A stretch of 57,013 bases of DNA, taken from assembly GCA_030619925.1 (NCBI GenBank), contig JAUXAL010000015.1, positions 1 through 57,013 of the forward strand, read 5' to 3'. Source of the stretch: Phycisphaerae bacterium (GTDB lineage: Bacteria; Planctomycetota; Phycisphaerae; Sedimentisphaerales; Anaerobacaceae). The translations under genes and the position numbers were made by a program. Each line of letters opens with the position of its first letter. Position 1 is the first letter of the stretch. A model generated the notes under the pieces. That model was not told the origin of the DNA. It made no database searches and was given only the letters and a program-made list of their open reading frames with translations. Below, piece after piece: positions 5,991 to 51,910 of this stretch.

Positions 5991-6018
5991 TATCTCCTAT
6001 TCTGTATCTGCTAAACTC
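5991..6018. repeat. Degenerate 7-bp tandem array
   Basis: Four units in register: TATCTCC, TATTCTG, TATCTGC, TAAACTC. It lies just upstream of the DUF4038 gene. Confidence 0.5.
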
Positions 6019-6086
6019 CAATCTATGAATTGCCAAGAGGCCCGGTACGGAACAGCCCGGCCTTTACACTCTTTCAGGTACTTTTG

Positions 6087-6140
6087 TGGGGGCAGGCCCA
6101 TGTGCCTGCCCAGGGCAACCACATCGGGTCGCCCCTACAT
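6087..6140. repeat. GC-rich dispersed repeat element
   Basis: GGGGGCAGGCCCATGTGCCTGCCC followed by a GGGTCGCCCCTAC end. The inner arms GGCAGGC/GCCTGCC pair, and the GGGCGACC-type end is a motif widely scattered in environmental genomes. It appears to truncate the hydrolase remnant next to it. Confidence 0.5.
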
Positions 6141-6230
6141 TGAGACCTTGCCTGCAAATTGTACCGCGATACTTCCGCCCAGAGACCTGCCGAATATAAC
6201 AATATTATCCGGCCGTATTTTCTTTTCCTT
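6140..6230 (-). pseudogene. Alpha/beta hydrolase remnant
   Basis: The minus strand encodes RPDNIVIFGRSLGGSIAVQF. This is the nucleophile elbow (G-x-S-x-G, here GRSLG) of the YfhR/ABHD13-like alpha/beta hydrolases. Nothing before or after it fits that fold: a GC-rich repeat starts at one side and the ispG-like copy at the other. About 28 codons remain, far below the usual 250 or so. Confidence 0.6.
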
Positions 6231-6256
6231 GCATCGAACATCAAATGTCCGACATT

Positions 6257-6344
6257 TTAATCTGCTCCAGAGTACAAAACAAGCTACAACTTTCGTGTGA
6301 TTAAAAGAAAGAAAACCATAACTGTCACGCCGGCTGCTGAATAA
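6257..6344 (+). pseudogene. Copy of the ispG 5' end (upstream region plus about 15 codons)
   Basis: The stretch from TTTAATCTGCTCC to the codons VIKRKKTITV resembles 7581-7660, the promoter region and start of ispG (MIKRRRTKTV). It includes the shared block AAAACAAGCTACAA and a GTG start. The frame stops after 15 codons. It is a decayed partial duplicate 1.3 kb from its parent, with glycerate kinase in between. Confidence 0.6.
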
Positions 6345-6370
6345 CATACCACTATTTTACGGAGTCGGAG

Positions 6371-7495: not shown

Positions 7496-7524
7496 AAAAG
7501 TTAAACTCGATACTCGTAAGCGTT

Positions 7525-7582
7525 TAGCGTATAGCCTATAGCGCTTGTTTTTTTCTATCCGCTATCCGCTATATGCTAATTT
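7525..7582. repeat. Degenerate 7-bp tandem arrays
   Basis: Two runs: TAGCGTA, TAGCCTA, TAGCGCT (7525-7545), then after a T tract CTATCCG, CTATCCG, CTATATG, CTAATTT (7555-7582). The period is 7 bp throughout. It lies between the divergent glxK and ispG genes. Confidence 0.65.
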
Positions 7583-7586
7583 TAGT

Positions 7587-7615
7587 TTGCTCAGAAACAT
7601 AAAACAAGCTACAAT
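7587..7615 (+). promoter_or_regulatory. Probable sigma-70 promoter of ispG
   Basis: TTGCTC, 17-nt spacer, TACAAT. The -10 ends 6 nt before the GTG start, so transcription would begin at about the start codon. Confidence 0.45.
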
Positions 7616-7621
7616 TTTGGC

Positions 7622-8680
7622 GTGATTAAGAGAAGAAGAACGAAAACCGTCAAGGTCGGCCCGGTAAAAATCGGCTCATCCGCCCCGGTTGTCATCCAGT
7701 CGATGACGAAGGCCCCGACAGTCGATATCGCGCGTTGTGTCAAGCAGATAAATCAGCTTGTCCAGGCCGGCTGCCGGCTGGTCAGAATCGCCGTCCCCAG
7801 ACGGGCCGATACCGCTGCTTTTGCCAAAATTGTCCAAAAAGTAAATGTCCCTCTAATCGCCGACGTTCACTTCAGCGGCGCCCGAGCTATCGAAGCGATT
7901 GAAGCCGGGGCTGCCAAAGTAAGACTCAACCCCGGCAACATAAAAAATCGAAAAGACATCCTGCGAATAATAGACGCAGCCAAAATGCACAGGACCGCTA
8001 TCCGCATCGGCGTCAACGAAGCAAGTATTAGAGACCTCAAAAAGCGGCCTGTCCCACGTGAAAAACGCACTGCTTTAATGCTGACGGAAATGAAAAAGTA
8101 CGTCCGCATCTTTGAAAATCGCAATTTCAACCGATTGGTTCTCAGCGCAAAAAGCAGCGACGCCTTAAGAACCATCGAAATCAACCGCAGAATTGCCCAG
8201 ACTTTCCCCTATCCAATCCACCTCGGCCTCACTCACGCAGGTCTGCCCGAAGACGCCCAGGTACCTTCAGCCATTGCCCTTGGCACACTGCTGGCGGAAG
8301 GTATCGGTGACACCATCAGGGTAAGTGCCGCCGGCAGCCCCCTGATAGAAACGAAAATTGCAAAAGAGATTCTAATTGCGCTCGGCCTTTACCAGCGCTC
8401 GACGCCGGAGCTGATAGTTTGCCCGACTTGCGCCAGGGCCGAATTTGATGTGGTCAAGCTGGCCCGGCGGGTCGAAAAGGCCATATGCGAGATTGACAAA
8501 CCACTGCGTATCGCTGTGATGGGCTGTGTCGTCAACGGCCCCGGCGAAGCCGCCGACGCCGACCTGGCCATCTGCGCCGCAAAAAATAAAGCCTTTATCT
8601 ACCGCAACGGCCGAAAAATCTCAACGGTCCCCGAAAGCAAAACCATCCCGGCGCTACTGAAAGAGTTAAAGAAGCTGTGA
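7622..8680 (+). CDS. ispG: 4-hydroxy-3-methylbut-2-en-1-yl diphosphate synthase (IspG/GcpE)
   Basis: 352 aa, GTG start. IspG converts MEcPP to HMBPP in the MEP isoprenoid pathway, using a [4Fe-4S] cluster. The TIM-barrel part includes SMTKAPTVDIARCVKQI and IADVHFS. The cluster ligands are visible as CPTC (Cys267, Cys270) and Cys302 in GCVVNGPGE, with the essential Glu309. Length matches the short bacterial form without the plant-type insert. There is no Shine-Dalgarno sequence; a -10-like TACAAT ends 6 nt upstream, which suggests a leaderless message. The next enzyme of the pathway, ispH, is 5 kb away. Confidence 0.97.
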   Translation: MIKRRRTKTVKVGPVKIGSSAPVVIQSMTKAPTVDIARCVKQINQLVQAGCRLVRIAVPRRADTAAFAKIVQKVNVPLIADVHFSGARAIEAIEAGAAKVRLNPGNIKNRKDILRIIDAAKMHRTAIRIGVNEASIRDLKKRPVPREKRTALMLTEMKKYVRIFENRNFNRLVLSAKSSDALRTIEINRRIAQTFPYPIHLGLTHAGLPEDAQVPSAIALGTLLAEGIGDTIRVSAAGSPLIETKIAKEILIALGLYQRSTPELIVCPTCARAEFDVVKLARRVEKAICEIDKPLRIAVMGCVVNGPGEAADADLAICAAKNKAFIYRNGRKISTVPESKTIPALLKELKKL

Positions 8681-8684
8681 TTTT

Positions 8685-9410: not shown

Positions 9411-9471
9411 ACCAAAGACTAAGAACCTGAGTCCTTGGTCTTAGGTCTTGGGTCTTGAGTCTTGGGGCTTG
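9411..9471. repeat. 7-bp tandem array forming an inverted repeat
   Basis: ACCAAAG, ACTAAGA, ACCTGAG on one side and AGTCCTT, GGTCTTA, GGTCTTG, GGTCTTG, AGTCTTG, GGGCTTG on the other. The left units are near reverse complements of the right ones, so the array can fold. It lies between the convergent ends of the membrane protein gene and the PIN/TRAM gene, where it may serve as a two-way terminator. Confidence 0.6.
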
Positions 9472-10689: not shown

Positions 10690-10724
10690 AACCATAATCA
10701 ATAACCATTAGCCAATAATCGATA
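10690..10724. repeat. Degenerate 7-bp tandem array
   Basis: Five units: AACCATA, ATCAATA, ACCATTA, GCCAATA, ATCGATA, followed by A and G runs. It lies upstream of the PIN/TRAM gene. Confidence 0.55.
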
Positions 10725-10729
10725 AAAAG

Positions 10730-10919: not shown

Positions 10920-11665
10920 CCGCAAAGCAGAGCCAATCCACCAAGACCCAGCAGAGCTATCTACGCATAACCCTCCTCCTCTTCAACAGTAGATTCGGTC
11001 TTCGCTCTGGCTAAAAGCTAAAACACCTGTTGCCCTCGACAAGCACGCAGAACTTTAGCGCCCGGCTGTGCCTGCCTTAAACAACCTTACAGAACAAGCG
11101 ACAAAAAGTCTTCACCAAACCCTGTGCTTGTCTCAAGACAGCTTTTTCTTAGAACTCGGCTTTTCTCGACGTCCTTGTGGAAGCCTACTGTGAGCTGTTA
11201 GTTGAAATGCAAAAAATACACTCCTGCCTCCAGCTCTATCTGTCACCCAATAATTCTTTAGGTGACTTGCCCAGGAACTATGGATATCTTACACGTCAGA
11301 AAGCCAAAATCCATAATAACTCACTGACGTCACACTTACCTACTTGTACCAAATTAGCTATATTCTCGTCAAGAAAAATACGGTAAAATATTACTAAATT
11401 CTCGAGTAAAATTGCTTAAGAAGCGTAAGTCCCGTATTTAGAAGCTCTTACAAACATTTTGTAGAGAAAAATTCATCTAAAAATCCCCGTTCCGGTATCT
11501 ATTTTTTACTTCCAAACGGTCGTTTTTGCCCGATAAAACACACCCAACAACCAGGCAAAACTCAGCCAGCCACCCTGCTGTCGAACCATCCAAACGACAC
11601 ATTACACACTACGAAACGTCATTGCCGACAGCACAATCGGCCTTGGGAGGAAAGCAACTTCTTGC

Positions 11666-11686
11666 TTAATTCTCAATTTTTAATTT
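11666..11686. repeat. Short 7-bp tandem array
   Basis: TTAATTC, TCAATTT, TTAATTT; it ends 1 nt before the last base of the rpsA stop codon (minus strand). Confidence 0.4.
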
Positions 11687-11687: not shown

Positions 11688-13691
11688 CTACGCTCCCTCG
11701 GCCTTCTCCTCTGCACTATTATCGTCGCCGGCCCCAGCATCGGTCTCCTTACCCTCATCGGCCTTGTCTTCTACACCACTATCGTCGCCGGCCCCAGCAT
11801 CGGCCTCCTTGCCCTGGTCGGCCTTGTCTTCTGCACCACTATCGTCGCCGGCCCCAGCATCAGTCTCCTTGCCCTGGTCGGCCTTGTCTTCTGCACTACT
11901 ATCGTCGCCGGCCCCAGCATCGGCCTCCTTGCCCTGGTCAGCCTTGTCTTGCGGTTTTGCAAGCTGGCCCACATCAGCGTCAGAAAGGACCTTCTCAGTA
12001 TCCGCCAGTGCCTGCTGCTGACCGGCCCCGGCTGTTTGCTCCTCAGCAGCCCACTGAACCCTTCGCAAACTCAAACCGATTTTACGCGCATCAGTATCAA
12101 CCTTCAGAATCTTAACTTCAACTTCATCACCTACCCCGACAACGTCCTGAGGCTTATCAATCTTGTGGTCGGCAAGTTCAGAAATATGCAACAACCCCTC
12201 CAAATCCGGTTCAAGCTCAACGAACGCACCAAAATTAGTAAGTTTTGCCACCTTGCCTTTAATAATATGTCCCGGAATATATTTTTCAGGGATAGCACGT
12301 ATCCAGGGGTCCTCAGTCATTTGTTTTATCCCCAGCGATACCCGCCGTCTCTCTTCATTAACTTCCAGAACAATGCATTTGACTTCCTTACCCTTTTGCA
12401 GGGCCTCACCGGGATGGTTATATTTCCTTGTCCAACTTAAATCCGAAATATGTATCATACCATCAATACCCGGCTCTATCTCCACAAAGACGCCAAAATT
12501 GGTCAGGCTACGCACCTTGGCGCTAAGAATCGTTCCCGCAGGGTACTTTTGAGAAGCTATCGCCCATGGATTCACCTCGGTTTGCTTCAATCCTAACGAG
12601 ATTTCCTGCTTTTCCTTGTTAACATCCAATACAACTACTTCTATTTCGTCCCCGAGATTGACCATCTCGCCCGGATGTGCAAGGCGCCTCGTCCAGCTCA
12701 TCTCGCTGATATGCACCAGCCCTTCAACACCATCTTCAAGCCGAACAAACACGCCATAGCTCATCACATTTACAACCTTCCCTCTTACCCTCGCTTCGAT
12801 TGGATAACGCTCTTCAATGTTTTCCCACGGACTGGATGTCTTTTGTTTCAAACCCAGCGAAATCTTTTCCTTCTCCTTATCAACGCCAACAACAATGCAT
12901 TCTATCTCCTGGTCGAGCTCAACAACTTCTGAAGGGTGCGATATCCTGCCCCAGCTCAAATCAGAAATATGCAGCAAACCATCCAGACCACCCAGATCCA
13001 CGAACACACCGAAGTCAGCGATATTCTTCACGACACCTTTTCGCAATTGACCGACCTCGATTTCCGTCAGAACTTTTTCCTTGCTGCTCCTGCGTTCTTC
13101 TTCCACAAGCTTGCGCCTCGATATGACGATGTTGCGACCCTCCACATCGATCTTGAGAATCTTGCATGCCACTTCCTTGCCGATGAACCTGCTGATATCG
13201 CCCGGTTTTCTGATATCGACCTGTGAAGCCGGCAAAAAGACAGGTACCCCAATATCAACAAGCAAGCCGCCCTTGATCCGCCTTATCACCTTACCTTTAA
13301 CAACATCGCCCTCTTTTTTCGTATTGAGAATCGTTTCCCAGCCCCTGATGACGTCGGCTTTGCGCTTGTTCAACAGGACAAGTCCGCTTTCGGAGTCGGT
13401 ATCCTCAAGAAGAACCTCTATCTCTTTGCCGGGCACTATCTCCTCAGAGCTCTCAAAATCACTCGCATCGACAATCCCTTCGCTTTTCAGCCCCACTTCC
13501 ACAATAACATCATTGCCTATTTGCGATACGACTGTCCCTTTAAGAATAGTCCCCGGCAGACACGAATCCACCTTCGTCCGCAGAGCTTCTTCCAAAAACT
13601 CATTTTCTTGTTCACTGAACATCTCGCTGACCTGCTGGTCAAGCTTCTCTTGTGACAAACCCAATTTGTTAACTATATTTCTATCAACCAT
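11688..13691 (-). CDS. rpsA: 30S ribosomal protein S1 with acidic repeat tail
   Basis: 667 aa. Six S1 RNA-binding domains are visible (starting near residues 45, 128, 215, 300, 385 and 472). The last four have the usual GVFVxLxxGxxGLxHISxLSW pattern; the first two are the degenerate ribosome-docking type. S1 brings mRNA to the 30S subunit. After domain 6 (about residue 545) the protein carries an unusual tail of some 120 residues. Its core is about four copies of a 20-residue acidic unit built on KADQGKEADAGAGDDS, which makes the protein about 100 residues longer than E. coli S1. It lies 111 nt downstream of ispH on the same strand, a pairing known from other phyla. Confidence 0.95.
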   Translation of the reverse strand: MVDRNIVNKLGLSQEKLDQQVSEMFSEQENEFLEEALRTKVDSCLPGTILKGTVVSQIGNDVIVEVGLKSEGIVDASDFESSEEIVPGKEIEVLLEDTDSESGLVLLNKRKADVIRGWETILNTKKEGDVVKGKVIRRIKGGLLVDIGVPVFLPASQVDIRKPGDISRFIGKEVACKILKIDVEGRNIVISRRKLVEEERRSSKEKVLTEIEVGQLRKGVVKNIADFGVFVDLGGLDGLLHISDLSWGRISHPSEVVELDQEIECIVVGVDKEKEKISLGLKQKTSSPWENIEERYPIEARVRGKVVNVMSYGVFVRLEDGVEGLVHISEMSWTRRLAHPGEMVNLGDEIEVVVLDVNKEKQEISLGLKQTEVNPWAIASQKYPAGTILSAKVRSLTNFGVFVEIEPGIDGMIHISDLSWTRKYNHPGEALQKGKEVKCIVLEVNEERRRVSLGIKQMTEDPWIRAIPEKYIPGHIIKGKVAKLTNFGAFVELEPDLEGLLHISELADHKIDKPQDVVGVGDEVEVKILKVDTDARKIGLSLRRVQWAAEEQTAGAGQQQALADTEKVLSDADVGQLAKPQDKADQGKEADAGAGDDSSAEDKADQGKETDAGAGDDSGAEDKADQGKEADAGAGDDSGVEDKADEGKETDAGAGDDNSAEEKAEGA
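11700..11950 (-). repeat. 60-bp tandem repeats in the 3' end of rpsA
   Basis: About four copies of a 60-bp unit. The block GCCTTGTCTT recurs at 11761, 11821, 11881 and 11941 on the plus strand. Copies differ at a few positions. The unit encodes a 20-residue Asp/Glu/Ala/Gly-rich sequence. Confidence 0.9.
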
Positions 13692-23113: not shown

Positions 23114-23122
23114 AGTTCGAAC

Positions 23123-23157
23123 ACGCAATACGATATACGCATTACGCAATACGAAAT
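23123..23157. repeat. 7-bp tandem array abutting the acyP start
   Basis: Five units: ACGCAAT, ACGATAT, ACGCATT, ACGCAAT, ACGAAAT, then directly the ATG of acyP. Confidence 0.75.
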
Positions 23158-23427
23158 ATGGTCGCCAAACATATAATTTTCACCGGTCGTGTCCAGGGCG
23201 TCGGCTTTCGCTTTACCGCATATAATATAGCCCATCGCTATCAGCTAACCGGCCTCGTCCGCAACCTGCCGGATGGCACTGTTGAGATGCTCGCTCAGGG
23301 TCGGCCTGAAGATATAGATGACTGCATACGGGATATAAAGGAGTCTTTTGTCGATTACATGAGAGAGGCCAAAATCGAAGAAATCGGCCCCGACCCCCAA
23401 CACACGGATTTCAAAATCACCTTTTAA
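23158..23427 (+). CDS. acyP: Acylphosphatase
   Basis: 89 aa, full length. GRVQGVGFRFTAYNIA holds the catalytic Arg (residue 18) and the phosphate-binding loop; the catalytic Asn is in GLVRNLPDGTVEMLAQG. It hydrolyses acyl phosphates. The ATG follows directly on a 7-bp repeat array, and no Shine-Dalgarno sequence is visible. It stands alone, divergent from the phosphatase gene. Confidence 0.93.
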   Translation: MVAKHIIFTGRVQGVGFRFTAYNIAHRYQLTGLVRNLPDGTVEMLAQGRPEDIDDCIRDIKESFVDYMREAKIEEIGPDPQHTDFKITF

Positions 23428-23575: not shown

Positions 23576-23602
23576 CACTCACTTTTTAGAAAGGGCACTA
23601 CA

Positions 23603-23630
23603 TACGAAATACGAGATACGCAATACGATA
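23603..23630. repeat. 7-bp tandem array
   Basis: Four units: TACGAAA, TACGAGA, TACGCAA, TACGATA, ending at the stop codon of the next minus-strand gene. Motif related to that at 23123. Confidence 0.7.
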
Positions 23631-24395
23631 TTATTCTCCAAGATGCCGAATGACGCCGCGTTTGCGAGGCACTACAAGGTCTGCCGTTCTGGCCGGCTGG
23701 TCTTCTTTAACCTTGTAATTGACGTCCATTATCTCGACAAACTCCGCCGTGTACTCCTTCAACACACCGCAGTATTCAAACATTTTATCACCCTTAATCA
23801 GCTCAAGCACAACCTTATGGCCGATATATCTTTCCAACAAAGGCTCAAAAGATGCTCCCACCGAGCCCACCAGTTCTTGTTTCATCTGGGAGACATATTT
23901 ATCTTGAGAAGTCAGTACCGCCCCGCCGGGGGTAGCTTTTTTAGCCTGACTCATTAAGAGATTCACTATCTCCATCACCGAATCTCTTATCGTTTTGAAA
24001 ACATTCTTTACTTTTCTTTTAAGTCTTCGCAGCAGTGTCGGATGATATGTCCTTTTTAATTCTTTCTCTCTTTCCGTTTTATTAGATTCGCTAAGCTCAT
24101 CGTGAAAACGAACCAACGCCCCAATATTAGGGTATTCGTACTTATATAAGATATAGCTTGTCTCATCGTGTCCTTCCTCGTCTTTATGTTTTTTCGGATA
24201 GACAAATTCCAGCCCTGTATTTTCCACCCTCAACCTGCCCCATATCGCCTTGCCGGATATATCCTCCAGCGTCACCATATTCTGCTCGAAATCTCTCAGG
24301 CACTTATCTCTGCTTCTTTTTCTAATAAAGGCACCAACAGCCGCAGCAAAGATAATAAAAAGTATTGTTATAGCAGTTGCACTTTCACCAAACAT
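23631..24395 (-). CDS. Membrane-anchored protein of unknown function
   Basis: 254 aa. One N-terminal membrane segment (about residues 6-24) is followed by a basic stretch, so the bulk should be cytoplasmic. Residues 40-75 look like a small beta-barrel (EDISGKAIWGRLRVENTGLE). The middle is helical and highly charged (SNKTEREKELKRTYHPTLL), and the C-terminal 70 residues are again beta-rich (GHKVVLELIKGDKMFEYCG). I do not recognise a family. It is preceded on its strand by a palindrome (24409-24428) that overlaps the only purine-rich ribosome-like site. Confidence 0.75.
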   Translation of the reverse strand: MFGESATAITILFIIFAAAVGAFIRKRSRDKCLRDFEQNMVTLEDISGKAIWGRLRVENTGLEFVYPKKHKDEEGHDETSYILYKYEYPNIGALVRFHDELSESNKTEREKELKRTYHPTLLRRLKRKVKNVFKTIRDSVMEIVNLLMSQAKKATPGGAVLTSQDKYVSQMKQELVGSVGASFEPLLERYIGHKVVLELIKGDKMFEYCGVLKEYTAEFVEIMDVNYKVKEDQPARTADLVVPRKRGVIRHLGE

Positions 24396-31483: not shown

Positions 31484-31583
31484 GAGTTTGGCCAAGTTAC
31501 GGATTCATTCGTCTGCGTAAGTGCTATTGAATTTCTCGTTCTCGAACCCTTGCTTTTACGCACACTCATTCCCGCATTTATTA

Positions 31584-31604
31584 TTCACGAGCGACGAGTC
31601 ACGA
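31584..31604. repeat. Short 7-bp tandem array
   Basis: TTCACGA, GCGACGA, GTCACGA. Confidence 0.45.
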
Positions 31605-31857
31605 ATTTCCCTCCCGGCCCGCGCGCCGCCGAGCCGCTAAAACTGGTAATGGGAAGGTCTTCTTCCTTACCTGCCCGCTTATTGTTTTCTTCCTCGGCCT
31701 CGCTCATCCGTATGTCACTTTCACACTATATAATCCCCAAAACTGCGAGTCCGTTTGCGAGCATCCCGAGCGCAGCCGAGGGACCTCTTTCCCAGTCGGT
31801 TTCACTGACAGAATCCCACAAAGAAAACCCGAAAGCCCAGCCTGACCCGTGCGCCGA

Positions 31858-31892
31858 GTATCGAGCATTCAGTATCGAGCATCCAACATCGA
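31858..31892. repeat. 7-bp tandem array
   Basis: GTATCGA, GCATTCA, GTATCGA, GCATCCA, ACATCGA in exact register. Confidence 0.65.
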
Positions 31893-32165
31893 GCAGCTGC
31901 CACGCACAAATTACGGTGTTTGTCACCCCTTAGAAACCCCCAAAATCTTAAGAGGAGGTTGACTACCCGAAATGTCTTTTTATTTTTGCTCGAAAAGCGC
32001 GCATTTTTGACAATTTTTGCAAATTTTTTGAAATTTTTACGAAAAAATGGAAAAAAAATGCATATTTTTGAATTCGCCCTCAAATCATTGTAAGTATCTG
32101 CGTAGAAGAACCTTACAAAAATTATTACCAAAAGCCCCAAAAACTAAATGTCCGCTTTCAACAGT

Positions 32166-39885: not shown

Positions 39886-40034
39886 CTGATAGTATCCTAA
39901 TTAGCCATTATACTCTTTTCAGGAGGAGTACAAATACGCCAAAGCGCAAATCTAAAGGCACAGCTGGCTATTTCGACATTTTTAGCAAGGCTGTTTTCGT
40001 GCCGAAAGACTAAAAGAAAGGTAGGGTTCCTGTG

Positions 40035-43000
40035 ATGCATCCCTTTAACCAAAGAAAATCAGTTGCTGTTATATCGATTGGGTTGTGCTTATGTATCTGT
40101 TATGCGAGCTTAGCCGAGCCTGTTAATGTTGAGCAGGTACGAAAGGCCTCGGATACGTTTCTAAAATTGCAGCATATCCGTCAGGGAAAACAAATAAGGC
40201 TGTTTTCAGTGCCGGGTGAACAGAAAGTACCTGTCAGAGAATCGACCGCTGTAGGCCTGAGAGAAATACGTGGTGATGATGGAACTGTTCTTGCATACAT
40301 TACCGAGCTGGAGCCGCGCGGGTTCGTCGCGACCTCTGCAGATACAGATATCACTCCGATTGTCGCTTATTCTTTCAGGAGCTCCTTTCCGGCTGACGAG
40401 AACAGAAACAACCCCCTGTACCGCCTGTTGAAAGAGGACATGAAGCTAAGAGCAAAGGCGCTGGCCGAAGATGATAAATTCAAGAAGATGGAAAACAACA
40501 ACCTATGGAATTTGTATGCCAATGAAGATACAAGACATTTTGCGAGCCAGACATTCCAGGAGTGGCCGCAAGAGAGCACGACTTCCACCGACGGGTGGCT
40601 GGAGACCACGTGGGACCAGGAGCCACCTTACAACGACTTTTGTCCGCTCGACCCGGTTGATGCCAACAGATGTTATGTGGGCTGTGTGGCGACGGCGATG
40701 GCACAGGTCGTCAATTATCATCAGCAAAGTAACGTACATTTCGATGAGGACGATTCGTATTCAATGTACAGCGGCATCGATATCGACGGTGACAGCAGCT
40801 TGTACGATTTCCCCTCTTTTGAGGAGCTGAACGAGTATCTTGCCGCCCTGCGGTTTAAATACAGTAGACTGACAGAACTGGATGATATAGATGTCGCCGC
40901 ACTTAGTTTTGCTTGTGGTGTTGCTGCCCAAATGAATTATTCCAGTGAAGGCTCATCTGCTTCACCCTATGCTGCGCAGGATGCGTTGCTCAATAAGTTC
41001 GGCTTTTATTCGGCGGACATGACCGGTGGTCTGTCATGCGAGTCTTATCACACGCTGCAAGAGAATATAATTAATCAACTCCCTGCCCTGATAGGTATTG
41101 GCCCGCCGGATGGTTACGGCGGACACTTCATTGTTTGTGACGGCTATAACACAAACGGTGAGTATCACCTTAATTTCGGCTGGGGTTCCCCTCATCCTGA
41201 CGAAATAACCGAGGCATGGTATCGTTTACCAATGGGCATGCCGACTGATGATGTCATCTCGGAGGCAATACTGAATGTTCGACCTGTTCCGTCGGGTATT
41301 GATGTTGACCCGGCCCCATCTATTTTTTATAGCGTTCCGGGTCAGGAAACTGAGCCTAAAACGCTGTTTATCAAAAACAATACCGCGGGAAGCATTTTGA
41401 TAAACTCGATATCCAGTCCGGAAGGATTTGTCGTCTCCGGCGCAGATGACAGCTACTCGAACCATATAGGCTCGTTTGAAATACAGCGTCCGGGACAGGA
41501 AGCTTCGATAAATTTGAAGTTCCACCCGGATGAGGCGCGGGGCTATTATGAAACACTTACGATTAACTACGGCGATGGAAATACGAAGCATGTGATTCTA
41601 AAAGGGAACTCCTTCTCGGGTGGGACCCAAATCCCGGAGGGCGAAGTGTCCGGAACCTGGTCAGATGCCAATTCACCCTATTTTGTGGACGGGGACATTG
41701 AAGTGCCGGAGGACGGCGAGCTGGTTATCGAACCGGGGGTCAAAGTCATGTTCTTAGGCCCCTATGGCATGACCATCGGCAAAAATGCGAGGTTGGTTGC
41801 CGAGGGAAATGAGAATCACCCGATAGAATTTACGGCCTGGAATAGAGACATGGGTTGGGGCGGGCTGCGATTTATCGACTCGGGTGCCGATGACATATTG
41901 AGCTATTGTTCAATTACTTTCTCGAAGAAAAACACCGGTTCAATGGTCTATATTCCGGACATAGACCGCAATGGAGGAGCGATTTATTGCAACTCTTCGA
42001 GTCCGACCATCACGAATTGCAAAATCTCCAACAATATAGGAGACAAAGGCGGTGCAATCTATTGCTTTGAAAGCTATCCTGTGATAAGCAATACCGTGAT
42101 AGCGAACAATGCTTCGATGGGAGGCATTTCTCAGTGCGGCGGGATATACACTACGGGATGGGGTGCACCTGAAATCAAGAACTGTACGATAGTAAACAAT
42201 TTGCCCGGCGGTATTTTCACAATGTCGGGGGACGGCGTGGACATGACAAACACAATTGTGTGGGGCAATCACATGTACCAGATACGAACGGACGAATCCG
42301 TGCCGGTAGTGTCGTATTGTGATGTCCAGGACGGTTATCCCGGCCAGGGCAATATAGATGCCGACCCTTGTTTCTTTGCTCCAAGCTCTGGTGCCGGGCC
42401 GGATTATGACGGGGCATCGGCCAATTGGACCCTGCAGAGCTGTTCACCATGCATAAATTCCGGTACAGAAATATATCTTCCGGAAACCGACCTGGCGGGC
42501 AGTCAAAGGATTTATAGTGATATTGTTGATATGGGGGCTTATGAGAATCAATCAGACTTGCCTTTGATTACTGTCGCCCCATCAGGTACAGCCGATGCGG
42601 GCTTCGTAGCTCTTGCTACAGACTCGACTACCGGCCTTGATATTACGAACACGGGTAAGATAGACTTCAAAGTAGAAAGTCTGAGCATTTCCGATGAGAA
42701 CGGTGTTTTTTCGATAGTTACCGACGTACAGGATCATCTTCTGGTGCCGGGTGATTCGGTCCAGGTAGAGATTGGATTTACGCCGACAGAAGAAGGATTC
42801 TATACCGGCAGTGTTTATGTTCATTCAACCAGCAGTAATGACCCGAACAAACAAATTACTCTCAATGGAGTGGGGGTCTCAGGAATGATTATCGCTGGTG
42901 GTGAAGTCAGAGGTACGTGGACGAAGGCTGAGAGCCCCTATACAATTACAGGAGATATTCATATTCCAAGAGGGCGAACGTTGACCATCGAGCCGGGAGT

Positions 43001-44012
43001 GGTGGTCAAATTCGCAGGTCATTTCGGATTGACGGCCGGTTATAGAGCGACTTTGCGTGCGGAAGGCACGGAGCAAGAGCATATCGTCTTTACTCCGATA
43101 GATAGCAACGAGGGATGGTTCGGCATACGTTTTGTCAATAGTGGGGCCGATGACGTATTGAAATATTGCACTGTCGAATACGCCAGGAAGCCTTACAACG
43201 CAGGAAGCGGTTATCTGGACCTGTTAGGCGGAGGGATTCTTTGCTGTAGCTCACGGGAAGCCGAACCAAGCTACGGCGTTCCTTCCAGCCCAACGATTGA
43301 CCACTGTCTGATTGCCAATAACCATGCATTATCCGGTGGCGGGATTTTTTGCATGGATGAATCGGAAGCGCAAATTACGTATAACACGATTGTTAATAAC
43401 TCAGCATTTATGGACGGTGGTGCTATTTACGTCGAAGACTCCTCCCCCACGATCACCAACAATGTCATTGCTCATAATTCTGCGTGGGCCTCCGGGGGCA
43501 TTTTAACCTGGTATGCAACTCCTTCGATTACAAACAATACCTTCGTTCACAACAGACCCAACGGGCTGTATCTGGGACCGACGCCGTTCGTCTGGGACTC
43601 AGAGGGCGGCACGCCTGTCTTGAATAATATTATCTGGCAGAACGAAATATATGTGTCTCGGCATGTCGAGCCTGGAGATTATGATATTAACTTCAACAAC
43701 ATTCAGGGCGGTTTTGAAATAGTAGGATATGACTGGTTGACTGGAGAAGAGGAAAAGCAAGAGGGCCAGGGCAATATCGATGTCGACCCCTGCTTTGCAG
43801 ACCCTGAAAACAGGGACTACCATCTCAAATCAGAAGCCGGCCGATGGGACCCCGGCAGCCAAACCTGGGTGCAGGATGATATAACAAGCCCATGTATCGA
43901 TGCAGGGCAGCCAGATACTCCAATTGGTTCAGAGCCATCACCCAACGGGGACATAATTAACATGGGCGCGTATGGCGGCACTGATGAGGCGAGCAAAAGC
44001 CCCGGAAACTGA
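40035..44012 (+). CDS. Giant exported C10 (streptopain-type) peptidase with two beta-helix modules
   Basis: 1325 aa from the ATG at 40035 (a GTG one codon earlier is possible). Signal peptide (VAVISIGLCLCICYASLA), propeptide (about 30-125), then a C10 papain-like domain: CYVGCVATAMAQVVNYH with the catalytic Cys near 217 and GGHFIVCDGYNTNGEYHLNF with the catalytic His near 364. A beta-sandwich (about 425-530) precedes a first parallel beta-helix (540-845); a second sandwich (850-950, choice-of-anchor D-like) precedes a second helix (955-1320). The two helix modules begin alike (GEVSGTW / GEVRGTW, then IEPGV), so they arose by internal duplication. No sorting signal is seen. Likely cleaves proteins outside the cell or at its surface. 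Confidence 0.85.
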   Translation: MHPFNQRKSVAVISIGLCLCICYASLAEPVNVEQVRKASDTFLKLQHIRQGKQIRLFSVPGEQKVPVRESTAVGLREIRGDDGTVLAYITELEPRGFVATSADTDITPIVAYSFRSSFPADENRNNPLYRLLKEDMKLRAKALAEDDKFKKMENNNLWNLYANEDTRHFASQTFQEWPQESTTSTDGWLETTWDQEPPYNDFCPLDPVDANRCYVGCVATAMAQVVNYHQQSNVHFDEDDSYSMYSGIDIDGDSSLYDFPSFEELNEYLAALRFKYSRLTELDDIDVAALSFACGVAAQMNYSSEGSSASPYAAQDALLNKFGFYSADMTGGLSCESYHTLQENIINQLPALIGIGPPDGYGGHFIVCDGYNTNGEYHLNFGWGSPHPDEITEAWYRLPMGMPTDDVISEAILNVRPVPSGIDVDPAPSIFYSVPGQETEPKTLFIKNNTAGSILINSISSPEGFVVSGADDSYSNHIGSFEIQRPGQEASINLKFHPDEARGYYETLTINYGDGNTKHVILKGNSFSGGTQIPEGEVSGTWSDANSPYFVDGDIEVPEDGELVIEPGVKVMFLGPYGMTIGKNARLVAEGNENHPIEFTAWNRDMGWGGLRFIDSGADDILSYCSITFSKKNTGSMVYIPDIDRNGGAIYCNSSSPTITNCKISNNIGDKGGAIYCFESYPVISNTVIANNASMGGISQCGGIYTTGWGAPEIKNCTIVNNLPGGIFTMSGDGVDMTNTIVWGNHMYQIRTDESVPVVSYCDVQDGYPGQGNIDADPCFFAPSSGAGPDYDGASANWTLQSCSPCINSGTEIYLPETDLAGSQRIYSDIVDMGAYENQSDLPLITVAPSGTADAGFVALATDSTTGLDITNTGKIDFKVESLSISDENGVFSIVTDVQDHLLVPGDSVQVEIGFTPTEEGFYTGSVYVHSTSSNDPNKQITLNGVGVSGMIIAGGEVRGTWTKAESPYTITGDIHIPRGRTLTIEPGVVVKFAGHFGLTAGYRATLRAEGTEQEHIVFTPIDSNEGWFGIRFVNSGADDVLKYCTVEYARKPYNAGSGYLDLLGGGILCCSSREAEPSYGVPSSPTIDHCLIANNHALSGGGIFCMDESEAQITYNTIVNNSAFMDGGAIYVEDSSPTITNNVIAHNSAWASGGILTWYATPSITNNTFVHNRPNGLYLGPTPFVWDSEGGTPVLNNIIWQNEIYVSRHVEPGDYDINFNNIQGGFEIVGYDWLTGEEEKQEGQGNIDVDPCFADPENRDYHLKSEAGRWDPGSQTWVQDDITSPCIDAGQPDTPIGSEPSPNGDIINMGAYGGTDEASKSPGN

Positions 44013-45482: not shown

Positions 45483-45486
45483 GAAT

Positions 45487-45514
45487 TGATTATTGATTAT
45501 TGATTATTGAATTT
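45487..45514. repeat. 7-bp tandem array after ahcY
   Basis: TTGATTA three times, then TTGAATT. Confidence 0.75.
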
Positions 45515-45544
45515 TTTCAATTATCGATTGTCAAATTCAGGCTT

Positions 45545-47392
45545 ATGGATAATAAAGAGACAGAGAAGGCGCCGATAGTGGTCTCGAAGTCTTTTATGAC
45601 TGCTGGTCCTACGCTGCACTACAGCCATAAAAATGTTCAGAGGTGCTGGCTTCTTGCTGTTGTGGCCTTTGGTATAAGCTGTCTTTTCTGGTCGAAAATA
45701 GTAACGGGCACATTCTGGTCGTTCAACTTTGAGGCGGTAACTTCCCCGGAATTTTGGCGTTTGGGCCAGTCCCTTGTGACAGGCGTGAGCATATTTGAAT
45801 ATCCCTGGCAGATTCTTATCTTAGGGCTGCTTATGGGTATTCTGGCAATTGTGCCGGTGTTGATATCGCAACTTATGAGTTTCCGCTACAGTTTGCTTCT
45901 TATATTGGGGGCGTTTTTTTTAGCAAATCTACCGGGTTTTGCGATTTGTCTGTTGGTAAGTTGTATTGCCGCGGCGTGTCGTCCGCTTCGTTTTCGCTCG
46001 CGTTTTATTGCGATAGCACTATGCACAGCCCCACAGCTTCTTTATTGGGGATGTTTCGGTGGTGCCAGAGGGGTGGAACCTATTCAATGGGGATTTTCTT
46101 TTGCGCCCTGGATTTGTGCCTGGATTATTGGCTTAAGCATAGCGGCGTTGGTCCTCGGTATAGGTCATTTTACGCGTTATCGGCCCGGCCTGGTCTGGAT
46201 TTTTACCTCTATTTTCCTTTTGTTGGCTATCGTGACTTTTGAAATAAGGATAGGCTTTGATGAATTAGACTATCAGCTTTACGTCGCCAAGAATAATCCG
46301 GAGCAGACAAGCGAATTTCACGACCACAGCATCACAGAAGCGCTGAACGAAACGACTAAAGACCCTGTTATCAAGAAATACCTGGAAGATTTCTTTTACC
46401 CTGCCGACCAAATAGCGCGGCGCCAAGAGCTAAAAAGGGAGATCGAGATTGGGTTAAGCTACGACCGTTGGCCAAGCTGGTTTATAGTGCCCCAGGAGCT
46501 GAATTATCAGATGAAAAAACAATTGCTCCTCGAGCAGTACGACGCGTTTATAAGCCGGAGATTCAAAAGTCATCGGATGCCAATAGCGCTCTACTACAAG
46601 GCGCTTCTGAGCGAGTACAGCCCGGATGTCAAGATGCTTAGACAAAGAGAAGTATTGCATTTCTACAGCGATTATCCATACGAAAGGTCACGGGAGATAT
46701 GGTATCGACTGTACAGCAAATTCGGCAACAGTCCCGAATCACTTGAGGCACGATGGCGGATTGCAAAGCATTGGGCCGGTCAGGGTAATTTTGAGCAGGC
46801 CGATGCGCTTCTTGCCGAAGCACAGAAGATGGTGAGTGAGAAACAACAAACGCAAAGTGATACACTCTTTAAGCTGTTTCATCCACCGGCCAATTCGGCA
46901 ATGACGGAGTTTAAGTTAACCGAGCTGCAAAGAAGATTAAATCAGTTGCGGACTCTTATAGGAGCTGAAAACCGAACCGGCGAGCCGGCTTCAACCCAGT
47001 GTTTGGCGAGATTTGTTATGCTGAACCCACACGTCTCCGATTATGCCCGGCAGCTCGACGAATTGTTGGAACAAATAGGCGCCGATGACCCTCTCCGTGA
47101 CAACATCGTGTTGGCCCAGGCAAAGCTTGTTGCCGACGAGCAGCTTCGGGCTGAACGACTAAGCGAGCTGCACAAAGGATTCCCAGAAACTGATGGCGGG
47201 ATGCAGGCATTGTATGAACTGGGGCTTTTGAAGATTAGTCTGTGGCGTCAGCAAGATGAGTCGAACCTGGAGCTGAAGAAGAAGTATTTAGCTCAGGCGA
47301 GAGCAACTCTGGAGCGCTTTATCGGCTTGTATCCGGATAGCTTCTGTGCCGAGCAAGTCAAAAAGAATCTGGATGGCCTGCCCACTAATTAA
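45545..47392 (+). CDS. Membrane protein with long helical C-terminal region
   Basis: 615 aa from the ATG at 45545. A start at 45500 would translate the 7-bp repeat array, so the inner ATG is preferred, although its ribosome site is weak. About seven hydrophobic segments fill residues 30-235. The remaining 380 residues are helical and TPR-like (NSPESLEARWRIAKHWAGQG, FEQADALLAEAQKM, ARATLERFIGLYPDSFCAEQ), suggestive of Tol-Pal/YbgF-style repeats. No enzyme motif is visible. Role unknown; possibly a membrane scaffold. Confidence 0.65.
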   Translation: MDNKETEKAPIVVSKSFMTAGPTLHYSHKNVQRCWLLAVVAFGISCLFWSKIVTGTFWSFNFEAVTSPEFWRLGQSLVTGVSIFEYPWQILILGLLMGILAIVPVLISQLMSFRYSLLLILGAFFLANLPGFAICLLVSCIAAACRPLRFRSRFIAIALCTAPQLLYWGCFGGARGVEPIQWGFSFAPWICAWIIGLSIAALVLGIGHFTRYRPGLVWIFTSIFLLLAIVTFEIRIGFDELDYQLYVAKNNPEQTSEFHDHSITEALNETTKDPVIKKYLEDFFYPADQIARRQELKREIEIGLSYDRWPSWFIVPQELNYQMKKQLLLEQYDAFISRRFKSHRMPIALYYKALLSEYSPDVKMLRQREVLHFYSDYPYERSREIWYRLYSKFGNSPESLEARWRIAKHWAGQGNFEQADALLAEAQKMVSEKQQTQSDTLFKLFHPPANSAMTEFKLTELQRRLNQLRTLIGAENRTGEPASTQCLARFVMLNPHVSDYARQLDELLEQIGADDPLRDNIVLAQAKLVADEQLRAERLSELHKGFPETDGGMQALYELGLLKISLWRQQDESNLELKKKYLAQARATLERFIGLYPDSFCAEQVKKNLDGLPTN

Positions 47393-47395
47393 TGA

Positions 47396-49200: not shown

Positions 49201-49273
49201 GGTTGTTCCGAACATTTAACCGCAGATTTCGCAGATTGCGCTGATTTATTAGCCACGAATTAACACGAATTTA

Positions 49274-49303
49274 ACTAATCACTAATTCACTAATACTCTA
49301 ATT
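49274..49303. repeat. Short imperfect 7/8-bp array
   Basis: CTAAT recurs at 49275, 49282, 49290 and 49298. Just upstream a CGCAGATTT phrase recurs at 9-bp steps (49221-49247). Confidence 0.4.
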
Positions 49304-49327
49304 CCCCCCCAAGGTCATTCCCATATT

Positions 49328-51286
49328 TCAGTCGGAGGGCTCCTCTACAATCCCATGCCGCGAGCAGATGTACTGGAAGAGTAAATCCCCGCCGAGAAGA
49401 GGACGAACCTGATCTAAGGGGATGCGTGTCCATGACTGTGCGCATTCTGGATGGCTGCAACAGACCGAGAGTTCCTTGCCGAGCCCGATCGCCAGATTCG
49501 AATCCCCACCGAGCACAAATCGGGTCTCGTCCGGCTTGAGCCGGTTGAAGACCTGGAGGATCTTGAACCGTGTTTCGGTCAGTTCCTCGCCAACCTCGCC
49601 GACAATGAAGACCTTTGGTTTCACGCGTTGGAGCAGGCGAAAGCAGCCCTTCGTCCCGAGGTGGTTCTTCAAATCCGTCTTCAGAAATCCACTTGTGTCT
49701 ACGTCCTTGCCTGTGTCCACCGCCTTTTCTTCACCGACCTCGATAGTCCCCAGGTGGGCGACCATCACGTCGCAACCGCTGAAGCTCTTGGGAAGCGACT
49801 CGATCCATTTCGAATCCGACGTGATTCCAACGCGCGCGACCGGTCCGTTCTCGTCCTTCAGCACGAAGACTAACCCAATCGCCTCCTCATCGCGTCCGTT
49901 GATGTCCACGTGTTGTGCGGGAACCGCCTGGACGTCGATAAAGTCGGCAATCGGATTGGTGCCACCACCGCGCACCAGTTGCATGGGATTGCGGCAGCAG
50001 CCCGAGGTCTTGAGGTACTCGCTGTATTTCGTTAGCGCTGGGTCGCAGAGATGGAACTGAAGCTGGCGGAAATCCATATTTGGCGGATGGGGTTTGAATC
50101 CTTTTGACTGGTTGCAACGATAGTTCAGATCGACCAGCGACTCCACATCGCGCGTATGATCCAGATGACAATGGGTGATAATGACGGTGTCCACGTCGGC
50201 GATGGACAAGCCTTTCCGATAGAGCTGGGTGACGAAGTCCACGCCGGGATCGATCACAATCCCGTGTCCTTTCCACGCGAGGAAGTAGCCGCCCCCGAGT
50301 CGCTCGTCCGGTCCCGGCTTGCCCCGACCGCGCAGTTCTTGGCGTAAAATGGGAGAGAAGGAGTTCCAGTCTCGAAGCACGACCAGCATGTCATCCGCAC
50401 CACCCTCGCCGGTGATCCGGGATACACCAACTGTCTCCGCGATCTGTTTCTTAAACTCCATCTTCTTCTTCAGAATATCCGGCAGGTCGTCCTTAATCGC
50501 CTCGAACAAATCGGTGATGAGAGCTTCGTCGGACGATCGGTCTGCCTGCTCGCGTTCCTCGCTCGACTTGCCGGCTTCCTCTGATTTGGTCATCCGGCTT
50601 GCGCGCTCGATCCAGATCCCTGCTGCCTCCTTCAATGGCGATTCGAGTCCCAACTCAATTGCACGACGAAACGCCTCTGCACTATCACTAGGTATTCCTT
50701 GCAGCCAGCGCAGCAGGCCAAGTCCGTAATACGGATTTGGGAATCCAGGATCGAGCGTGATAGCCTTCTCGTACGCCACCAGCGCCTCGTCGTAACGCTT
50801 CTGGAAACTCAGGACGCTGCCCTTGCCGTTCCAAGGATGTGGTAATTCGGAATCGAGCGTAATCGACTTGTCGTACGCCGCCAGCGCCTCGTCGTAGCGA
50901 TTCTGGGTACGCAGGGCGTTGCCCTTGCCGTTCCAAGGATAGGAGAATACGGGATCGAGCGCGATCGACTTGTCGTACGCCGCCAGCGCCTCGTCGTAGC
51001 GCTTCTGATCACTCAGGACATTGCCCTTGCCGTACCAAGGATAGGAGAATTCGGGATCGAGCGCGATCGCCTCTTCGTAGAGCGCGAGTGCGCCTTCCAA
51101 ATCCTCCCGCAGCCAAGTGGTCGTTCCGTCGGCGAATTTCTTCCAGGCCGAAGCGTCCGCCGCTACGGCTATTTCCCCAATCTCCTCCAAGAACGCGATG
51201 CGTTCGCCTTTCTTTTGAATATACCTGTATTCATGCAGATACCGTTGACGCATCGCTTCAATAGTCTTGGATCGTTTGCTTGTCAT
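49328..51286 (-). CDS. TPR protein with metallo-beta-lactamase-fold domain
   Basis: 652 aa from the ATG at 51286, chosen for a strong GAGGGAG site 8 nt upstream; an in-frame TTG at 51406 would add 40 residues. Residues 63-200 hold four tetratricopeptide repeats (DEALAAYDKSIALDP type). A charged linker follows. From about residue 300 there is a metallo-beta-lactamase fold: GHGIVIDPGVDFV and the metal motif THCHLDH (371-377), with later His/Asp candidates (PAQHVDI, ITSDSKW, VAHLGT). The C-terminus has Cys/His pairs (CCSHPEC, YICSRHG) that may bind zinc. No partner gene is adjacent. The TPR part would bind a protein; the MBL part would hydrolyse a nucleic acid, nucleotide or small molecule. Confidence 0.82.
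   Translation of the reverse strand: MTSKRSKTIEAMRQRYLHEYRYIQKKGERIAFLEEIGEIAVAADASAWKKFADGTTTWLREDLEGALALYEEAIALDPEFSYPWYGKGNVLSDQKRYDEALAAYDKSIALDPVFSYPWNGKGNALRTQNRYDEALAAYDKSITLDSELPHPWNGKGSVLSFQKRYDEALVAYEKAITLDPGFPNPYYGLGLLRWLQGIPSDSAEAFRRAIELGLESPLKEAAGIWIERASRMTKSEEAGKSSEEREQADRSSDEALITDLFEAIKDDLPDILKKKMEFKKQIAETVGVSRITGEGGADDMLVVLRDWNSFSPILRQELRGRGKPGPDERLGGGYFLAWKGHGIVIDPGVDFVTQLYRKGLSIADVDTVIITHCHLDHTRDVESLVDLNYRCNQSKGFKPHPPNMDFRQLQFHLCDPALTKYSEYLKTSGCCRNPMQLVRGGGTNPIADFIDVQAVPAQHVDINGRDEEAIGLVFVLKDENGPVARVGITSDSKWIESLPKSFSGCDVMVAHLGTIEVGEEKAVDTGKDVDTSGFLKTDLKNHLGTKGCFRLLQRVKPKVFIVGEVGEELTETRFKILQVFNRLKPDETRFVLGGDSNLAIGLGKELSVCCSHPECAQSWTRIPLDQVRPLLGGDLLFQYICSRHGIVEEPSD
50755..51075 (-). 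repeat. 102-bp tandem repeats encoding TPR units
   Basis: About three near-identical 102-bp units (34 codons) with recurring CGCCAGCGCCTCGTCGTA and CTTGCCGTTCCAAGGAT blocks. High nucleotide identity between units points to recent expansion or gene conversion. Confidence 0.85.
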
Positions 51287-51582
51287 CGTCGGATCTCCCT
51301 CGTAAATAAACGGGGGCATTAAATAGCCCCGATACATTTTATTGACATAATCTACATCTCGCTTGAAAAACTCGCATTTGTACATCCGCCTTTTTTGCTT
51401 CTTCAAGATTGCTGTTTCATATTATAACCATTGGTCCAGCCCGGAACAAGCACACTTCGTCCCTTTTGTTTTATAAACTGTACATCACAGAGGTTCACCC
51501 CGTGAGATAGATCCCCGACGAAGACATTCGAGGGCAGGGTGGCGGGGGCTAAAAATAACGGCATAAATGACCAAAAAAAGTG

Positions 51583-51687
51583 CGTAGGGTGGGGCTTCCG
51601 GCCTTCGCAGCCGCTTCGGCGGAGTAGGCTGCCCCACCTTCAAGAATACCACGGGCTTTGATCGGTGGGCTAAAGCCCACCCTACAT
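51583..51687. repeat. Dispersed inverted repeat element
   Basis: Ends GTAGGGTGGG and CCCACCCTAC pair with each other. Inside are GGTGGGCTAAAGCCCACC and GCCGCTTCGGCGG hairpins. This phrase is widespread in planctomycete and other environmental genomes. Confidence 0.6.
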
Positions 51688-51774
51688 GATTATTGATTAA
51701 TTACTCTGTGTTCTCTGTCCGGCTACGGCTCGCGCCTGCGCCGAGACGAGTGCTCTCTGCGGCTCAAAAAATCC

Positions 51775-51803
51775 TTGAAATCTAATCTGTTTTATGGTAT
51801 AAT
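51775..51803 (+). promoter_or_regulatory. Strong sigma-70 promoter facing the repeat region
   Basis: TTGAAA, 17-nt spacer, TATAAT with TGG extension. The first sequence downstream is the heptamer array; the first real gene is the HEAT protein 717 nt further. Confidence 0.65.
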
Positions 51804-51826
51804 GTATTTAACTATGGACGGTTCAT

Positions 51827-51910
51827 AGACAATAGACAACAGACAACAGACAACAGACAACAGACAACAGACAACAGACAACAGACATCAGACTTCAGAT
51901 AACAGACATC
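51827..51910 (+). repeat. Heptanucleotide array, 12 units
   Basis: AGACAAT, then AGACAAC seven times, then AGACATC, AGACTTC, AGATAAC, AGACATC. It is the longest and purest of the 7-bp arrays here, with degenerate ends. Confidence 0.95.

Follow-up and report, generated by a model that had tools for sequence, protein, structure and literature searches.

Why would a bacterial genome repeat itself every seven bases, with another word at each place? The question is raised by a stretch of a Phycisphaerae bacterium (NCBI GenBank assembly GCA_030619925.1, contig JAUXAL010000015.1, positions 1 to 57,013; the whole stretch of 57,013 nucleotides is called the window), for which a preliminary description listed a dozen noncoding sites with degenerate tandem arrays of exactly 7 bp. 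We find that the period-7 pattern is real and unusual, that the arrays change length by whole 7-bp units while the units mutate by substitution, and that they are not motif-free: they draw on a partly shared vocabulary, and some of them lie inside genes.

Coding and noncoding DNA were separated by longest-ORF (open reading frame) calls, with some spurious ORFs included in the coding counts. For the window this simple caller gave a noncoding set of 7,440 bases, with the stretches 5980-6024, 31550-31933 and 45483-45560 (which contain sites of the preliminary description) added by hand. Seven local lag-7 segments were counted in this noncoding set, where 20 shuffles average 0.05, and none in coding DNA; at lags 5, 6, 8 and 9 the noncoding counts are 0, 0, 1 and 1. 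The lag-7 autocorrelation of the noncoding set reaches z=4.5 (z=3.3 without the array at 51827). For 120,575 bases of the genome's noncoding DNA we obtained z=17.1 at lag 7, 12.5 at lag 14 and 15.3 at lag 21; the same analysis gave no lag-7 excess in coding DNA of the genome, and the noncoding lag-7 signal falls to z=0.0 once the discrete arrays are masked. A motif-blind search of 41 stretches of the bacterium's own genome (798,082 bases, window included) found lag 7 as the best period in 151 local arrays and lag 14 in 44, against at most 15 arrays for each lag that is a multiple of neither 7 nor 3, and a single lag-7 array in total in the shuffled control (one first-order Markov copy per stretch). 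Since the 40 fetched stretches came from contigs with motif hits, 20 further stretches were taken regardless of hits: these contain 65 lag-7/14 arrays in 335,904 bases (1.94 per 10 kb). No such array was found in 100,000 bases of E. coli K-12. The strict period thus holds, with lags 7, 14 and 21 standing out and lag 7 clearly higher than lags 5, 6, 8 and 9 and than shuffled sequence, and the refuting condition set in the preliminary description does not apply.

The twelve sites of the preliminary description were scored one by one. Eight are strong (7525, 7555, 9411, 23123, 23603, 31858, 45487 and 51827) and two weak (10690 and 11666); support is lacking for 5991 (P=0.35) and 31584 (P=0.073). 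Site 31858 is carried by a lag-14 score of 17.5, with P=0.010 for lag 7 alone. The arrays and the genes next to them are as follows.

7519..7542, + strand: heptamer array TAGCGTA, left hairpin arm upstream of ispG/gcpE (lag-7 score 12, reached by 0 of 300 Markov shuffles)
7555..7578, + strand: heptamer array CTATCCG, right arm of the same hairpin
7622-8680: ispG/gcpE ORF (GcpE, PF04551)
9431..9471, + strand: heptamer array GGTCTTG between convergent ORFs (lag-7 score 19)
10694..10725, + strand: weak degenerate heptamer array of AATAACC/AATAATC type (score 7.5, P=0.020)
11665..11686, + strand: weak degenerate heptamer array of TTAATTC type (score 7.5, P=0.007)
23120..23158, + strand: heptamer array ACGCAAT/ACGAAAT touching the ATG of the acylphosphatase gene (score 12)
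23158-23427: acylphosphatase gene (PF00708 match for 23158-23424)
23602..23628, + strand: heptamer array ATACGAA between the acylphosphatase gene and the convergent ORF 23631-24395
31857..31895, + strand: heptamer array AGTATCG/AGCATCC, clearest at lag 14
45485..45510, + strand: pure heptamer array ATTGATT (score 19)
51770..52359, + strand: dispersed leader element, with promoter-like TTGAAA-17-TATAAT (by eye), heptamer array, AGGAGGTTACCC block and CAAACCCAATT repeats
51825..51912, + strand: heptamer array AGACAAC of about 12 units within the dispersed leader element (score 61)

The array at 51827 has a pure core and degenerate edges, and that at 31857..31895 lies inside a 127-aa ORF without a Pfam match (31550-31933). 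Arrays were said to occupy most large intergenic spaces, which proved too generous: among the 10 noncoding stretches of at least 200 bases in the window, 2 carry a strong array and 1 weak ones only (strong arrays in 3 of 10 if the unsupported ORF 31550-31933 is counted as spacer).

The clearest view of how the arrays change is given by the leader element, whose core is matched in at least 40 places of the own genome at E<1e-28 (40 of 95 candidates scored); further copies include L036 7833-8361, L026 12034-12503, L046 10965-11432, L047 9094-9551, L033 676-1026, L040 1618-1911 and others. In these copies the array sits between the promoter-like block and a conserved AGGAGG-type block, and between the same flanks its unit varies by copy (GTTCATA, AGACAAC, GATACTC, TCGTATA or ATAGCGT). 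Eight copies, that of the 51825..51912 array among them, match both typed anchors of a single tail type; their spacers differ in motif and measure 43, 57, 57, 64, 85, 85, 85 and 127 bases, every one 1 mod 7, for which we calculate a chance of about 1e-6. No other indel is seen in these 603 bases, where the frequency in the element bodies (50 indel events over 25 copies, each about 200 bases long) would by our arithmetic predict about 6. Because array length changes by whole units and the units mutate by substitution, the phase survives while the motif drifts along the array. The earlier suggestion that arrays expand and decay is supported, with decay within arrays and whole-unit change among the congruent leader copies. 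As to the element itself (about 0.5 kb), a short ORF begins near GCCATCGTTT and is accompanied by 11-bp CAAACCCAATT/CAAAGCCAATT and 102-bp repeats; several copies lie near contig ends.

The claim that the arrays are motif-free did not survive comparison with related genomes (Phycisphaerae, Phycisphaerales, Sedimentisphaerales and Planctomycetota metagenome-assembled genomes). The word TACGAWA occurs in tandem 123 times in the own 4.02-Mb genome, against 2 for the reversed control. Over 61 genomes (own included) it gives at least one hit in 49, many with just one or two, and at least 20 in 17, and the reversed control never exceeds 10 hits in any of them. The word CAGAAGA occurs in 29 of 246 genomes of the phylum; since its reverse is nearly the same word, the reversed pattern is no valid background for it. 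For a wider comparison array units were grouped by rotation and strand into motif classes. The set from relatives comprises 84 arrays, and because some of the source loci overlap (for example L081 with L112/L113, L097 with L099/L100), distinct classes rather than arrays were compared: 30 of the relatives' 60 classes recur in the own genome, against 5.9 expected by letter permutation (maximum 11 in 200 permutations). Likewise, of 47 classes in the 20 additional own stretches, 27 were already present in the first set (5.9 expected, maximum 15 in 500 permutations). Altogether the own genome yields 108 distinct classes among 259 arrays, and twenty classes account for 143 of these arrays. Unit-position bias is mild (16 of 124 arrays beyond P 0.05) and was not used; at the level of trimers CGA, CTC, ATA and ATC are enriched in the own genome, for which no interpretation was reached. 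The distribution is patchy: 6 of 28 sampled relatives (G003, G004, G010, G019, G023 and G042) have at least 4 lag-7/14 arrays in 20-40 kb, and the remaining ones have 0-2 each, some from only 4-20 kb. The array-bearing relatives fit the planctomycete lineage to which the preliminary description had assigned the pattern.

Arrays had also been described as absent from genes, on the grounds that a period of 7 is out of frame with codons. Neither part can be maintained. Out of 172 array clusters 55 lie within ORFs of at least 150 aa; counted by array, 40 of 260 are placed 20 aa or more inside an ORF of at least 250 aa. The first set contains 35 array-bearing ORFs of at least 250 aa; 20 were sent to Pfam and 19 matched, among them two Mur ligases (the names MurE and MurF are our reading of these matches), MnmE, LpxK, ArgJ, UvrA, UvrC, ComEC, DnaX, a histidine kinase, AddA- and AddB-like nucleases and others. 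In LpxK, ArgJ, MnmE, UvrC, the HisKA kinase, ComEC and the AddA-like protein the array falls inside the matched Pfam stretch; in most other matched proteins it falls beside or between the best matched stretches. The codon argument in fact works in reverse: because 7 and 3 have no common factor, a tandem heptamer leaves either all three frames of a strand open or none, and one without stop codons specifies the same seven-residue peptide whichever frame is read. Of the 40 well-internal genic arrays, 36 have a motif that is open on both strands, compared with 105 of the 192 between genes; openness on one strand is partly built in by searching inside ORFs. As a caution for annotation, peptides of the kind AIRNTQYAIR or QDRRQKTEDRRQ in these genomes are repeat-derived.

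Three gene families were compared with their orthologs. Arrays of score at least 11 occur in 6 of 23 MurE, 3 of 22 MnmE and 4 of 24 ArgJ loci, 24 arrays altogether. Taking as clean a gain with at least 19 un-arrayed comparators of which at least 70% agree, 11 of the 24 arrays represent clean gains of 5-16 residues: +11, +7 and +7 (20/20 orthologs each) and +6 (23/23) in ArgJ; +12 (19/20), +11 (19/20), +5 (20/21, in two genera) and +5 (16/22) in MurE; +16 (19/21) and +11 (15/20) in MnmE. The net gains in genes are multiples of 3, and nine of the eleven are not multiples of 7 (15, 15, 15, 18, 33, 33, 33, 36 and 48 nt), the other two being of 21 nt, or 3 units (ArgJ of G014 and G007). The loop before ILVASTG in ArgJ carries the words TCGCTCG, AATCGAC and CGTCCAT in different genera (G000, G014 and G007), and when ArgJ is aligned to the solved structure 1vz6 the chain is shorter in this region, where gaps of 4 and 7 residues occur. 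The first MurE loop has CAGAAGA and CGAGCAT in different genera (G000 and G009), the late MurE loop different words in G009, G003 and G007, and the C-terminal loop of MnmE one word in G000 and G009 and another in G004. The same kind of word at one loop in two genera is found near residue 290 of MurE (G009, G004) and in the C-terminal MnmE loop (G000, G009). Arrays at the same position were further noticed in neighbouring paralogs, of different motif in a methyltransferase/PQQ-like pair (L033 12680-15991 and 15957-19301) and of similar motif in a radical-SAM pair (L027 5176-6396 and 8076-9308).

How might such arrays arise? Our preferred reading, to which we give an even chance, is that they are a genome-wide, near-neutral (selfish-like) population of tandem heptamers, lengthening by entire units and spreading to other sites by being copied. 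The process would begin with the change of length by whole 7-bp units and the substitution within units that are shown above. Arrays would then arise at sites where orthologs lack the unit, using words that are also present elsewhere in the genome and in related genera, as the comparisons indicate; at several sites the local loop seems to be partly replaced. Seeding would occur when part of another array is copied in while DNA is replicated or a gap repaired, presumably through template switching at short stretches of homology; slippage by 7 nt at a time would follow. The inserts would generally survive where they are tolerated, loops of essential enzymes included, as is seen in the three gene families, since a heptamer without stop codons leaves every frame open. 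For the 7-nt step itself a polymerase-linked slippage length, proposed by others for bacterial heptameric repeats, would be the simplest candidate. Copying-in followed by growth in steps of 7 is favoured by the gains that are not multiples of 7, by the shared vocabulary and by the little seed of the unit that orthologs contain (mean percentile 0.533 in 375 comparisons, in a test that is weak at 20-50% divergence).

Besides this weakness of the seed test, several observations weigh against our reading. None of the inserts could be traced to a donor array, neither a junction rule nor a target duplication emerged from the 11 sites inspected by eye, and relatives of the same genus, in which a recent event might be caught, were not found. 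Among the leader copies of tail type 2 only two of three are in phase, the other being shifted by an unrelated insertion. The net gain is not clean in 13 of the 24 genic arrays, where comparators disagree (for instance +5 in 8/19 for the first MurE loop of G009 and +8 in 5/19 for MnmE of G009) or are too few (1, 2, 2, 1, 1 and 7 in six arrays), and among the 22 MnmE loci the ORF used for G038 seems, from its alignment, to be unrelated. In G014 the ArgJ array, with its 21 additional nucleotides beside similar local codons, looks equally like local growth, and a gain not divisible by 7 would be compatible with local growth combined with loss of loop bases. Loops with the same word in two genera may reflect inheritance. 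Arrays of up to 60 bp have 13.9 substitutions per indel, a strong contrast to the 1.9 of arrays with other non-codon periods and a modest one to ordinary element DNA of the own genome, which already has 8.7; the transition/transversion ratio also differs modestly (0.73 in noncoding arrays, 0.55 in ORFs, 1.03 in element bodies). Finally, the samples of the six one-contig relatives G001, G011, G017, G039, G044 and G048 hold 0-1 lag-7/14 array each, a scarcity that may be an effect of lineage or of assembly.

Given the whole-unit length changes in the leader copies, it might be argued that pure local replication slippage suffices, any 7-mer expanding in place with a polymerase-determined 7-nt step and the vocabulary consisting of the words that expand most easily. 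The pure core and degenerate edges of the array at 51827 agree with this, as do the gains of exactly three units in ArgJ of G014 and G007, the over-representation of heptameric repeats in many bacteria and the idea of a polymerase contact (as excerpted from PMC4692102). Slippage alone fits poorly with the nine clean genic gains that are not multiples of 7, with the little seed in orthologs and with the recurrence of half of the relatives' motif classes in the own genome, and we regard it as possible though rather unlikely. A phase that is kept while the sequence drifts would also be expected if the 7-bp unit were the contact of a repeat-binding protein or an RNA-binding ring, with the phase under selection because 21 bp (3 units) equal two helical turns. 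The position of the leader arrays between the promoter-like and AGGAGG-type blocks would suit such a function, and a regulatory role has been proposed for TAACTGA repeats upstream of start codons (MacGregor 2015, PMC4679880, in excerpt). The widely different motifs, the presence of arrays in unrelated enzymes, the ispG promoter block that stands without an array in six relatives (by eye) and the positions relative to genes described below make functional phased arrays quite improbable.

A rigid step and seedless insertion would also fit a dedicated enzyme that lays heptamer tracts, such as a telomerase-like or retron-like reverse transcriptase, or error-prone end joining. Three many-array relatives (G004, G010 and G042) do carry the reverse transcriptase domain RVT_1, whereas the own genome (92.8% complete) has no match. 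Array richness was judged by TACGAWA hits, the 12 genomes with at least 50 being called array-rich, and by 4- to 40-kb samples of 28 relatives. RVT_1 is lacking in 9 of the 12, the own genome included (present in G004, G016 and G035), and found in 25 of the 49 others. Because the own genome and other many-array genomes are without RVT_1, a reverse transcriptase is not required, and the reverse transcriptase that telomerase-like or defence-associated (DRT) tandem-repeat synthesis would need is missing here. Among the 12 array-rich genomes Ku gave nothing beyond a partial match of 50 positions in the own genome. MutS occurs in 11 of the 12 (58 of all 61), and the Y1 transposase in 10 of the 12 and in 43 of the remaining 49. 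Judged by presence in the genomes, proximity to the arrays aside, a transposase tied to the repeats, as in the REP/RAYT system, was not found; the Y1_Tnp matches in the own genome are only weak. Overall, presence or absence of reverse transcriptase, Y1 transposase, MutS loss or Ku was not associated with arrays in 61 genomes each, in a test that is coarse because array richness was judged by one motif pattern and small samples: G010 has 4 TACGAWA hits yet 6 lag-7/14 arrays in 20 kb, and both G010 and G042 use words other than TACGAWA. The explanation is weakened for the enzyme families tested, and we consider it highly improbable.

Positions relative to genes show no regulatory preference. Arrays have no preference for a type of spacer (0.63 per kb in divergent, 0.73 in tandem and 0.82 in convergent ones) and no clear distance rule to start or stop codons. 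Some are arranged as hairpins. The TAGCGTA/CTATCCG hairpin upstream of ispG has a 20-nt arm and a 16-nt loop; the GGTCTTG array has its inverted partner directly upstream (19-nt arm, 4-nt loop); and the ATTGATT array begins 2 bases past the stop codon of the AdoHcyase gene (PF05221/PF00670), with an inverted partner then following. An inverted partner (score at least 9) accompanies 36 of the 172 array clusters, against 3.5% in shuffles and 7.8% in other noncoding DNA, and the other 136 are without one. Terminators and promoters were considered as roles for the arrays and rejected in view of the lacking spacer preference and the minority share of inverted partners. In the window Rfam at gathering scores gave nothing except the tRNA.

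Comparison of the same site in relatives, which the preliminary description had proposed as a check, was made at ispG and covered 13 of 30 loci. A conserved promoter block is accompanied by an array in the own genome and in G019, with a different motif in each, and in 6 further relatives this block stands without an array (by eye); the loci are too divergent for a unit-by-unit alignment. In G019 the spacer upstream of ispG (L052 1349-1451) contains, next to its period-7 array, segments of periods 15, 8 and 16.

Other repeats were seen in the same material. An imperfect hairpin family of about 110-140 bp has arms of degenerate heptamers (AAATCCTAAAC ... GTTTAGTATTTCG), with copies at L017 543-673, L022 5186-5308, L031 3784-3919, L040 11162-11273 and L046 5488-5617. 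Arrays of AAAGTG-type units with mixed periods (not 7) and inverted arms lie at L042 4742-4877, 6178-6282 and 7344-7438 and at L038 3121-3191. A dispersed repeat of about 70-100 bp with a palindromic core (CACCCCCAAACAAGTTTGTACTACTCTGCGAAGC...), resembling a miniature inverted-repeat transposable element, is found at L017 8733-8803, L018 16665-16765, L022 2576-2677 and L032 11253-11341 and 14554-14655. Within the window, 40032-44012 encodes a 1326-aa protein with a C10 peptidase, a Spi inhibitor domain, Ig-like domains and a right-handed beta-helix; 49328-51406 encodes a TPR protein that also has a metallo-beta-lactamase domain and whose coding sequence contains 102-bp repeats (50741-51069); and a separate 60-bp coding repeat occupies 11698-11950 within the ORF 11688-13691.

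Heptameric repeats as such are not new. Their over-representation in many bacteria was reported in 2007 and a polymerase contact was proposed as the cause (PMC4692102, citing Mrazek 2007); according to excerpts of that 2015 paper, its authors found no detailed literature on heptameric repeats. The arrays described here share with heptameric simple sequence repeats (SSRs) and short tandemly repeated repetitive sequences (STRRs) the exact 7-bp tandem units that exceed other periods. They differ in having neither one or few motifs per genome nor a motif kept within the array, since motifs drift along arrays. The SSRs of Xanthomonas and Nostoc (GGGAATC/GGGNATC; Rehm et al. 2015, PMC4692102, in excerpt) are alike in their 7-bp units with fixed and variable positions, strong intergenic over-representation, unit numbers that vary between relatives and some inverted pairs. 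Each of these genera has one G-rich motif type, whereas here many non-G-rich motifs per genome are partly common to genera and also occur inside conserved enzymes. For the tandem heptanucleotide STRRs of cyanobacteria (Calothrix, mentioned in PMC4692102) three repeats are reported, against 108 classes among 259 arrays here. The TAACTGA repeats of Beggiatoaceae, cyanobacteria and Bacteroidetes (MacGregor 2015, PMC4679880, in excerpt) are heptamer direct repeats too, scattered patchily over distant lineages, some of them in ORFs. They consist of a single motif with related heptamers rare, and in ORFs lie mostly at protein ends, unlike the many motifs and the inserts within domains found here; the TAACTGA class (AACTGAT) is absent from the array classes of the 41 own stretches and from the 30 classes shared with relatives.

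Closest in behaviour inside genes are the Rickettsia palindromic elements (Ogata 2000, via excerpts of PMC2229807), which are dispersed and occur in frame inside conserved protein genes as well as between genes. In-frame insertion into conserved genes is common to both. The Rickettsia elements measure 105-146 bp and have terminal inverted repeats, whereas the present arrays consist of heptamers in tandem over about 17-150 bp, have no fixed sequence and give clean genic gains of 15-48 nt in several motifs; an inverted partner is seen in 36 of 172 clusters. We place the arrays among the heptameric repeats, behaving like a selfish genic insert. Comparable repeats of other bacteria are mostly intergenic; these also occupy essential genes. 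In searches of an open-access library with few of the subscription journals we found no description from Planctomycetota, in line with the preliminary description, and none of multi-motif heptamer inserts in enzymes.

What emerges is a lineage in which period 7 exceeds other periods about tenfold (its own multiples and the codon rhythm aside), in which the leader copies constitute a natural experiment on length change, and in which repeats enter essential enzymes. A further proposal, which we consider doubtful, is that this Planctomycetota lineage has an undescribed DNA-copying activity which works in inherent steps of 7 nt, extending arrays and also pasting segments of them into new places. 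If true, a shared heptamer vocabulary would spread through the genome and into the loops of essential proteins, and the activity would generate peptide inserts that are in frame and independent of the frame. Two matters can now be put to the test: the cause of the 7-nt step, and the role of stop-free heptamers as a possible source of new protein loops.

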